Origin: Candidatus Nitrosopumilus sp.
GTDB taxonomy: Archaea > Thermoproteota > Nitrososphaeria > Nitrososphaerales > Nitrosopumilaceae
Length of the DNA: 33,072 nucleotides
Assembly (NCBI GenBank): GCA_029881195.1
Contig: JAOUNB010000010.1
Coordinates: 1 to 33,072, forward strand
Reading direction: 5' to 3'
Shown: positions 2,983-5,205 of the stretch, one piece after another
How the letters are laid out: every line of letters begins with the position of its first letter
Numbering within the stretch: position 1 is the first letter of the stretch
Program-made: the position numbers and the translations under genes
The notes under the pieces: generated by a model
The model's input: only the letters and a program-made list of their open reading frames with translations
Database searches by the model: none
What the model was told of the DNA's origin: nothing

Positions 2983-3789
2983 ATGAGCGATGAGAATTCC
3001 AGATTTAACCAAAATAATAAAGAAAATGTAGTTGTAAAAAAGTCAACATTTAATGTATTAATAATCAGCCTAATCGTAATAGTTGGAATTGCAGCGTTTT
3101 TTGCTGGATCATATGTTTCAAATCTAAACTCTAATCAAATTTCAGATCAAGATCTTGATGATGCAATTGCCAAATTAGAACTCAAGATATTACAAAATCA
3201 GCTACCTACAAAACAACCAACGCCTCAAGTAAAAATTTCAGCGGATAATGACCCAGTTATTGGAAATCCCGATGCTCCAATCACAATAATTGAATTTTCA
3301 GATTTTCAATGTCCGTTTTGTGCTAGATTCCATATCCAAACACTTCCGTTAATTCTGGAACAATATATCGAGCAAGGAAAGGTAAAATTAGTTTTTAGAG
3401 ATTTTCCTATTCAAAGCATCCATCCTAATGCATTACCTGCATCTATTGCAGCAGAATGTGCAAATGAGCAAGGAAAATTCAAAGAAATGCATGACATGTT
3501 ATTTGACAATCAAAATCAATGGAATAAACAAGAAACTTCGGATGCACTTTCATTGTTTAGTAGTTATGCTATCAAGATTCAATTAGATCAAGAAACGTTT
3601 GATTCTTGCCTTACTAGTGGAAAATATATCGAAGAGATTAGAAAAGATCTTGATGATGGAAGAAATTACGGGGTTTCTGGCACACCTGGATTTTTTGTAG
3701 GAAATGAAAGGATAGGATTTGTTGAACTCAAAGGTGCACAACCATTTGATAGTTTTAAAAAAATTATTGATGCTCAGCTAGAGGCGTAA
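2983..3789 (+). CDS. Membrane-anchored DsbA-like thiol-disulfide oxidoreductase
   Basis: A 268-residue protein with a hydrophilic start, one transmembrane anchor at about residues 23-45, a linker to about residue 90, and a DsbA-type thioredoxin fold. The active site is FQCPFC, with cysteines 110 and 113. The conserved cis-proline loop appears late as GTPGFFVG. The fold should face the extracytoplasmic side and make or reshuffle disulfides in exported proteins. Its substrates are unknown, although several predicted surface proteins in this window contain cysteine pairs. It follows tRNA-Thr and is apparently monocistronic. The family call is firm; whether it acts as oxidase, isomerase or reductase is not decided by sequence. 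Confidence 0.9.
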   Translation: MSDENSRFNQNNKENVVVKKSTFNVLIISLIVIVGIAAFFAGSYVSNLNSNQISDQDLDDAIAKLELKILQNQLPTKQPTPQVKISADNDPVIGNPDAPITIIEFSDFQCPFCARFHIQTLPLILEQYIEQGKVKLVFRDFPIQSIHPNALPASIAAECANEQGKFKEMHDMLFDNQNQWNKQETSDALSLFSSYAIKIQLDQETFDSCLTSGKYIEEIRKDLDDGRNYGVSGTPGFFVGNERIGFVELKGAQPFDSFKKIIDAQLEA

Positions 3790-3802
3790 AAAATAACAAG
3801 CG

Positions 3803-3809
3803 TTTATTA
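3803..3809 (+). promoter_or_regulatory. TATA-like box of the DEAD-box helicase gene
   Basis: The sequence tttatta is the best TATA candidate between 3789 and 3892. Counting about 26 nt on puts the transcript start near 3832, which would leave a leader of about 60 nt before the ATG at 3892. A leader of that length is unlike the neighbours that appear leaderless. Confidence 0.35.
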
Positions 3810-3839
3810 GACCATCAGAGGTAATGCAACTATCGGAAT

Positions 3840-3876
3840 AATGACGTCTAAGCAATGAGCTTTTCGTCATTGCTTA
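3840..3876 (+). promoter_or_regulatory. Competing hairpins in the helicase 5' leader
   Basis: Two inverted repeats overlap here. Stem B is perfect over 10 bp: taagcaatga (3849-3858) pairs with tcattgctta (3867-3876) around an 8-nt loop. Stem A is perfect over 7 bp: aatgacg (3840-3846) pairs with cgtcatt (3865-3871). They share 3867-3871, so only one can form at a time. The 3' arm of stem B ends 15 nt before the helicase ATG. The element looks like a post-transcriptional switch or a helicase-sensed autoregulatory structure. A DNA operator is the alternative reading. Confidence 0.5.
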
Positions 3877-3891
3877 AGAGAAGAAAACAAA

Positions 3892-5205
3892 ATGACAAAA
3901 TTTACAGAATTAGGATTAAAAGATGAGATACTAAAAGGAATTACTGATCTGGGATTTGATGATGCATTTCCAATTCAAGAGGCAGTTATTCCCGTACTTC
4001 TTTCAGGGAGAGATGTTGTAGGTCAAGCACATACAGGTTCTGGAAAAACTGCAGCCTTTGCATTATCAATGTTGCAACAGATACAACCAAAAAAAGGCAT
4101 TCAAGGATTGATTATGGCACCTACAAGAGAACTTGCAATGCAAATTAGTGATGAAATTAAAAAATTCGGAAAATATACAGGAATCAGAATAGCAACAGTT
4201 TACGGAGGACAAGGAATGGGCATTCAGCTTGACGCTCTTCATAGAGGAGTAGAAATTGTGGTAGCAACTCCAGGAAGACTAATTGATCATCTCAAAAGGG
4301 GTTCAATTGAACTTAGAGATATTACTCATATTGTTCTTGATGAGGCAGATACAATGCTGGACATGGGATTTGTAGATGATATTTCATTTATTCTAGACTT
4401 AGCGCCAGAAGATAGAGTGATGTCATTATTTTCAGCAACAATGCCTACGGAAATCCTAAGATTATCAGAGGAATATCTCAATAATCCAAAACAATTCCTT
4501 TTGGACGCAGATGATCTCAGTGGAGAAGGAATTGATCAATCGTATTTGGTAATTAAAGACCGAGACAAATTCGAGTACCTAATTGATTTTATTAAACAAA
4601 CAAAAGGTCAATCGATTGTATTTTGTTCAACAAAGTATAGAACTAGAGATGTAGCAAAATTTCTGCATCAAGAAAAATACAATGCAGTAGCAATTGAGGG
4701 AGATATGTCTCAGCATAGAAGGGAGCAATCTATGGGTAAATTTAGAAGTGGAAAAGCAGACATTCTTGTTGCAACAGATGTAGCATCAAGAGGGATTGAT
4801 GTTCCAAGAGTAGAATTAGTAGTAAATTATGATGTACCAAATCAAGAAATGGCATACTTCCATAGAATTGGAAGAACAGCTAGAGCAGGGGCTCTTGGTA
4901 AAGCAATTACATTTGTTTCATATTCATCAGTAGGAGATTGGAATCTAATTAAACGTCAAATCAAAGTTCCTCTTAGAGATTTAAATCAAGAAATGGGAAT
5001 TCAAATATCTATCCCTGATCCTCTAAAAAGACAAACACCTTCAAGAAGATATGGTGGTCAATCAAGATCTAATTATTCCAGAGGAGGACGTTCTGGAGGA
5101 TACGGAAGATCCGATAGAAGTAGAAACCCTAGAGACAACAGAGATGAAAGAGGGAGACATGGGGGCGATAATAAAAACAGCTACGGTGGACGTAGTAGAT
5201 GGTAA
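3892..5205 (+). CDS. DEAD-box ATP-dependent RNA helicase with Arg/Gly-rich tail
   Basis: The 437-residue protein carries all superfamily-2 DEAD-box motifs in order: Q motif FPIQ (26-29), motif I AHTGSGKT (46-53), PTRELA (77), TPGR (126), DEAD (150-153), SAT (181-183), IVFCST, ATDVASRGID (294-303) and HRIGRTARAG (324-333). After about residue 384 comes a low-complexity Arg/Gly/Ser tail (for example SRGGRSGGYGRSDRS), typical of an RNA-binding extension. The role is unwinding of structured RNA in ribosome assembly, mRNA turnover or cold adaptation; the sequence does not say which. The leader contains competing hairpins that may regulate it. The gene is complete and not obviously in an operon. 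Confidence 0.95.
   Translation: MTKFTELGLKDEILKGITDLGFDDAFPIQEAVIPVLLSGRDVVGQAHTGSGKTAAFALSMLQQIQPKKGIQGLIMAPTRELAMQISDEIKKFGKYTGIRIATVYGGQGMGIQLDALHRGVEIVVATPGRLIDHLKRGSIELRDITHIVLDEADTMLDMGFVDDISFILDLAPEDRVMSLFSATMPTEILRLSEEYLNNPKQFLLDADDLSGEGIDQSYLVIKDRDKFEYLIDFIKQTKGQSIVFCSTKYRTRDVAKFLHQEKYNAVAIEGDMSQHRREQSMGKFRSGKADILVATDVASRGIDVPRVELVVNYDVPNQEMAYFHRIGRTARAGALGKAITFVSYSSVGDWNLIKRQIKVPLRDLNQEMGIQISIPDPLKRQTPSRRYGGQSRSNYSRGGRSGGYGRSDRSRNPRDNRDERGRHGGDNKNSYGGRSRW

Follow-up and report, generated by a model that had tools for sequence, protein, structure and literature searches.

We asked whether the short region in front of a DEAD-box RNA helicase gene in a Candidatus Nitrosopumilus genome encodes an RNA structure that controls the gene. 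An earlier note on the same DNA had described two mutually exclusive hairpins there and suggested a switch worked by temperature or by the helicase itself. We studied the locus in the window (the whole stretch of DNA analyzed, 33,072 nt) and in related genomes. The full statement that we favor, with confidence slightly short of even, is that positions 3832–3891 hold a conserved cis-acting leader that serves to gauge RNA-unwinding capacity.

The helicase gene and its predicted leader

The open reading frame behind the region matches the Pfam families DEAD (1.1e-50) and Helicase_C (1.1e-32), in line with the identity first proposed for it. Its closest solved chain is CshA (5ivl; E 6.7e-95), and the archaeal MJ0669 (1hv8) matches it at E 2.8e-87. 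The window's own genome has eight DEAD domain matches. Because the other seven lie in open frames of 498–917 aa and the best full-protein match elsewhere in that genome is poor (1e-18, 24% identity), the window helicase is probably the sole short, canonical DEAD-box gene of its genome.

A TATA-box-like motif lies within a conserved block, AACAAGCGTTTATTAGACC, upstream of the gene and recurs in 84 out of 84 close-relative leaders, 35–39 nt 5' of segment 1 (3840 in the window). With the motif starting at 3803, 29 nt before A3832, the predicted leader is 60 nt long, as the earlier note had estimated. Column information across the 84 leaders averaged 0.42 bits in the spacer after the TATA box, 1.66 in the leader head and 1.9 in segment 1; a variable spacer therefore separates the box from the leader, and conservation returns at the predicted start. 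A start downstream of 3870, a case that the earlier note had raised against its own proposal, is contradicted by this placement, though by prediction only. The features of the locus are as follows.

3803..3809, + strand: TATA-box-like TTTATTA inside the conserved block
3832, + strand: predicted transcription start, the A of ATCGG, 29 nt past the TATA start
3832..3891, + strand: predicted 5' leader of the helicase mRNA
3837..3846, + strand: 5' arm of stem A (segment 1), picked by RNAalifold on both model-fitted alignments, with its changes counted on a tree
3865..3875, + strand: 3' arm of stem A (segment 3), C3873 bulged, on the same basis as the 5' arm and on the window fold
3850..3862, + strand: hairpin C, AAGC-AATGA-GCTT, nested within the stem A loop in the minimum-energy fold
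3849..3858, + strand: 5' arm of stem B (segment 2), perfect 10 bp in the window
3867..3876, + strand: 3' arm of stem B, 3867–3871 common to stem A
3841..3858, + strand: five-codon upstream open reading frame, ATG...TGA, probably incidental
3877..3891, + strand: purine-rich stretch from the hairpins to the start codon, AGAGAAGAAAACAAA, alike in the alignment of close relatives
3892..5205, + strand: open reading frame of the DEAD-box RNA helicase (437 aa; RGG/RS-rich tail)

Both competing stems were confirmed at the positions originally reported: a perfect 10-bp stem (B; 3849–3858/3867–3876) and a perfect 7-bp stem (the core of A; 3840–3846/3865–3871) that share 3867–3871. Stem A extends past its 7-bp core, pairing 3837–3846 with 3865–3872 and 3874–3875. 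Hairpin C (3850–3853/3859–3862) is weak alone, since only 14 of 129 leaders have an inner loop that outperforms its shuffled versions at p ≤ 0.1; the mean energy of the inner loops is −3.26 kcal/mol versus −2.52 kcal/mol for shuffled loops. We dropped the hairpin as an independent element and retained it solely as part of the predicted fold.

A 10-bp stem alone, even with a competitor, is ordinary as a bare pattern in the window. The window's + strand has three perfect 10-bp stems within 60 nt (100 shuffles average 4.2), of which two have a 7-bp competitor, and at least one such case arises in 25 out of 100 shuffles. The joint stability of the two folds exceeds what chance would give: the leader's best fold at 28°C has −16.6 kcal/mol, the best one that uses none of its pairs has −15.7 kcal/mol, and among 300 dinucleotide shuffles the first was matched by six, the second by none and both together by none. 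The overall stability of the piece 3790–3930 at 37°C was no greater than that of shuffles (z −0.91). A pseudoknot between the loop U-run and the purine-rich stretch was considered by eye and is not claimed. Inspection of the window by eye revealed no terminator hairpin or U-run at the leader end of the kind a transcription attenuator would have; the bases 3' of stem B are AGAGAAGAAAAC, and the U-run (UUUU; UUUUU in many relatives) sits in the loop.

The upstream open reading frame (ATG ACG ... TGA across segments 1 and 2) was rejected as the main function because its frame is altered by small indels while the stems persist. Across 129 leaders, its stop falls at least 25 nt before the main start in 80, near or over that start in 24 and in between in nine; two frames run on in frame, and 14 leaders have no upstream ATG.

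Farther upstream in the window lie a gene for a DsbA/thioredoxin-like protein that has a hydrophobic stretch at its N terminus (2983–3789; Pfam Thioredoxin_4, 2.5e-37) and a tRNA-Thr (2834–2908, anticodon TGT), the sole RNA family match of Rfam 15 in the whole window at the gathering score. The thioredoxin-like gene is the upstream neighbor in 75 out of 80 named loci. Since L060, L094 and L112 lack it with ∼1500 nt of upstream sequence present, the leader goes with the helicase.

Conservation of the two stems

Our comparison drew on 182 sequences upstream of helicase orthologues in family f1, 131 of them distinct, from 18 genus groups (some genomes enter twice, from two collections). Genus and family labels (g, f) are GTDB group numbers, and we read f1 as Nitrosopumilaceae. 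The group called g1 comprises all loci L001–L116 lacking a family-row replacement, some other genera included. The leader precedes helicase orthologues in this family (Nitrosopumilus, Nitrosarchaeum and relatives): segments 1 and 3, which form stem A, could be placed in 129 of the 131 distinct leaders. The exceptions, L142 and L143 of genus g7, have no recognizable segment 1; by eye, both have an upstream hairpin, GTGTGATG/CGTCGCAC. Placement partly weighted pairing itself, which biases the share of kept pairs upward, and anchors were set by hand in L178, L189, L150, L067 and L070.

A covariance model of stem A matched 156 of 400 genomes of the class, all listed as f1 and spanning 18 of 82 genera, with a single match in 154 of the 156. 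The two others are G431, which has two helicase copies with the leader on each, and G010, whose second match is weak (E 0.009). A strong match (E below 1e-12) was present in 10 of 21 genomes, one each, ending just past the start of the helicase gene; the next-best matches in those 21 had E 0.15 or worse. All 12 genomes of the genus listed without a model match were also without a helicase orthologue (best E 6e-8 to 7e-19). In G331 the element is present with no helicase match, and its contig stops 124 nt beyond the element, which probably truncates the gene. The model fails on divergent g7, g8 and g11 genomes among those listed; stem A was located by anchors, some set by hand, in g8 and g11 and in one of three g7 leaders. 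Searches with the models R1 and R2 were given 100 sources, of which 79 and 77 matches, respectively, were aligned.

Two of the loci, L039 and L072, belong to one metagenome-assembled genome (JAJCXK01, isolate OFTM383) with two helicase copies and a leader on each. G068 has matches of the same kind and a listed contamination of 8%; the genome with two helicase copies may therefore be a mixture of two organisms.

Pair conservation was assessed on alignment A1, which covers 104 of the 131 distinct leaders (left out were all 19 of g8, three of g7, two of g11, one of g19 and two of g9) and in which some g2 rows are shifted. In stem A, 97.3% of cells were paired, and two-sided changes occurred in four of seven pairs, a count equally high in one out of 500 shuffles. 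Slid versions of the stem scored lower on every measure (covariation score 0.149 vs. at most 0.054). RNAalifold chose stem A on the A-fitted alignment (−5.3 kcal/mol) and, marginally, on the B-fitted one (−0.2 kcal/mol, covariation part −0.4).

We also counted changes by parsimony on a single midpoint-rooted helicase protein tree without support filtering. For the six core pairs of stem A in 129 leaders (L142 and L143 left out), single changes comprised 25 to G-U, five to A-C and four to other mismatches, alongside six double Watson-Crick changes. Of these leaders, 110 retain all six pairs, 16 retain five and three retain four. Matched changes include T-A to C-G in L067 and L070 and G-C to A-T in L072 and L081, and L072 has coordinated changes in all three segments, including a matching one in segment 2. 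These changes, mostly G·U wobbles or matched doubles, look as expected of an RNA; high sequence conservation has left few varying pairs in the leader.

Could the repeats instead act as DNA, as an operator bound by a transcription factor? Inverted repeats near a promoter would suit one, yet the excess of G-U over A-C (25:5 for stem A and 27:3 for stem B, two stems that share bases) is not predicted for a double-stranded site, and conservation returns at the predicted transcript start. Moreover, substitution bias in the same direction is just 122:89 in unpaired and spacer columns; against it, p = 0.003 for stem A and 0.0001 for stem B, values that are not independent because bases are shared. 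We regard an operator as extremely unlikely. The locus has a fixed gene context, a predicted transcript and pairs retained through compensatory or wobble changes, as cis-acting structured mRNA leaders do. On this comparative evidence, the leader is very likely a conserved functional RNA structure, and it probably controls the helicase gene.

Stem B has a narrower range. The compensatory changes that the earlier note proposed looking for did appear, as pairing-preserving changes in both stems, with limits in B. Its tree counts in 118 leaders were 32 G-U, 12 A-C and 22 other changes; with g7, g8, g9 and g11 removed (100 leaders), they were 27, three and nine, with two double changes, and all seven core pairs were intact in 86 of the 100. 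The 3' bases of pairs 1–5 are common to stem A. At pairs 6–8, outside A, eight changes led to G-U, 17 converted G-U to Watson-Crick, one was double and three broke pairing. Pair 8 was A-U in 38 leaders, G·U in 41, G-C in 20, U-U in one and never A·C (Fisher p 1.7e-5, uncorrected for relatedness). Over all 104 aligned leaders, double changes in stem B showed no excess over shuffles (two pairs; 437 of 500 shuffles reached as many), and slid versions had two to four double-change pairs, equal or more; this is partly because G-U is the commonest state at the most variable pair.

A B-like hairpin surpassed 95% of loop shuffles in 86 of 103 leaders outside g8 and g9 (related, not independent) and in two of 26 inside. 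It did not rise above the shuffles in the remaining 24 of these 26, nor in four leaders of g7, g11 and g13, so switching cannot be universal. By these counts, stem B competes with A in most genera and not in g8 and g9. Both stems are kept in close relatives, where the first proposal had named their loss as a point against it; the loss that did occur is of stem B only, in the distant genera g8 and g9. Viewed as a bistable leader, the element has a second fold that is conserved in most genera, absent from g8 and g9 and, by prediction, rarely populated.

We further inspected 24 helicase upstream regions (L191–L196, L300–L317) from the sister family f8, which we infer to be Nitrososphaera-like; the f1-type leader was not seen by eye in these 24. 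With the near-duplicates L309 and L317 and the differing L305, L311, L193 and L196 left out, 18 regions align around a conserved ACGG.GGA / TC.TCCGT stem with seven consensus pairs, one double change and −3.2 kcal/mol, and 14 of the 24 fold, by eye, into one long interrupted hairpin around that stem. The hairpin is built on CAAAAG...ACGGCGGAT...ATCTTCCGT...CTTTTG. A separate structured leader appears to precede the helicase in family f8, suggesting that RNA-level control of the helicase may be widespread in the group.

Predicted fold balance and mechanism

We compared the folds by nearest-neighbor energies, which are free of proteins and co-transcriptional folding. Among the 114 leaders able to form at least five of the seven B core pairs, A with hairpin C was predicted to be more stable than B at 25°C in 107, by a median of 5.5 kcal/mol, owing to the nested hairpin and the longer reach of A. 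This reverses the weighting in the earlier note, where A was the minor stem: A with nested C is the conserved fold. The window is nearer balance than the median: its lead of A is 4.0 kcal/mol at 4°C and shrinks to 1.8 kcal/mol at 25°C and 0.1 kcal/mol at 37°C. The 60-nt piece alone folds as B at 37°C, which may explain the earlier emphasis. Computation supports a default fold in which hairpin A encloses the small hairpin C, while B can claim the same 3' strand in most genera.

Temperature fared poorly as a conserved signal. An RNA thermometer exchanging A for B would fit the window itself, where the share of A is predicted to be 1.00 at 4°C but just 0.30 at 37°C, and L030, where it goes from 0.85 to 0.49. 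However, these two are the only leaders of 12 to shift appreciably; in the other 10 the share stays at least 0.96 up to 37°C. In seven leaders, moreover, the start codon is predicted to be almost equally exposed in both folds, so that conserved temperature-dependent opening of the start region was not found by prediction. We consider a thermometer very unlikely. In all seven leaders, bases −15 to −9 relative to the start codon are more accessible in B than in A, by 0.05–0.32; with near-equal start-codon access and so modest an upstream difference, the predictions reveal no obvious on/off device.

The main rival is a hairpin that does not switch: stem A would block decay from the 5' end or, as a ribosome-standby structure, fix the translation rate, and B would be a by-product of the shared AAUGA sequence. 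The predicted dominance of A, its retention in g8 and g9 where B is not kept, and the equally open start codon all agree with such a constitutive element. Against it, B's own pairs 6–8 vary compatibly with only three breaking changes, the B-like hairpin stands out from loop shuffles in most leaders outside g8 and g9, and a plain stabilizer would not seem to require such sequence conservation. We judge it unlikely, if less so than the other alternatives weighed here.

The AAUGA loop and the pyrimidine-rich stretch are, in many aligned leaders, conserved beyond what stem A needs, which could point to a candidate site for another RNA-binding protein, such as a TRAM chaperone or a ribosomal protein, controlling the helicase. 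A precedent comes from Methanococcus maripaludis: according to the available excerpt of PMC6705878, a DEAD helicase mRNA whose 5' UTR is 223 nt long is bound by the chaperone TRAM0076 and rises when TRAM0076 is deleted. That precedent concerns a different leader in a different organism, and we hold this possibility improbable.

Control by the helicase itself, also suggested in the earlier note, is plausible and the best remaining mechanism; we put forward feedback of this kind tentatively. While helicase activity is scarce, the leader would remain in A. Plentiful helicase would load on the adjacent purine-rich stretch and open A, and the leader would then refold into B or remain open, altering translation or decay of the helicase's own mRNA. 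As to its sign, we lean tentatively toward the negative. DEAD-box proteins unwind short duplexes. The helicase is our candidate for the reader, in preference to nucleases, the ribosome or other RNA-binding proteins, on account of the identity of the gene, of short hairpins that a DEAD-box enzyme could open beside a purine-rich strand, of the slightly more open upstream bases in B and of precedents of 5'-region feedback among RNA enzymes. Local unwinding by eIF4A1 is activated by AG-rich 5' UTR motifs (PMC9976904, available excerpt). More doubtful is a two-state gauge in which the enzyme would use ATP to turn the leader from the stable A into the conserved, rarely populated B. If true, it would let the cell measure its unwinding capacity directly and would make the leader an ATP-driven, non-equilibrium archaeal riboregulator.

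Relation to known systems

Rfam 15 searched at a relaxed threshold over 3780–3960 gave a best E of 0.5, all hits far below gathering scores, and we found no published work on this helicase leader in the open-access literature. We regard it as a new family of structured RNA leaders, unusual in having two mutually exclusive folds. To our knowledge, only a few archaeal 5' leaders have an established regulatory role. The host group, marine ammonia-oxidizing archaea, has cultured members and is a driver of ocean nitrification, and a short conserved helicase leader makes self-sensing by archaeal RNA-remodeling enzymes testable.

Long leaders on genes for RNA-remodeling proteins are familiar from Methanococcoides burtonii deaD and the bacterial cold-shock genes cspA and csdA, and the window helicase resembles them in this respect. 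Unlike those cold-shock leaders, the window leader shows no conserved thermometer behavior in its predicted equilibrium. Feedback on the own gene through its 5' region, as proposed here for the helicase, has been suggested for the activity of Helicobacter pylori RNase J and, as cited there, Escherichia coli RNase E (PMC5874925, available excerpt). These are nucleases, not helicases, and differ in structure and organism; in that excerpt, promoter-region activity was measured for RNase J.

The nearest likenesses in gene kind are archaeal. In the excerpts available, the DEAD-box helicase mRNA of Thermococcus kodakarensis TK0306 has a 159-nt 5' UTR holding tRNA-Lys (PMC4247193), and that of M. maripaludis MMP0457 has a 223-nt 5' UTR (PMC6705878); as in the window, both leaders are long for archaeal mRNAs. 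Compared by description, those two are much longer, whereas the window leader, at ∼60 nt, combines two exclusive hairpins with compatible changes.
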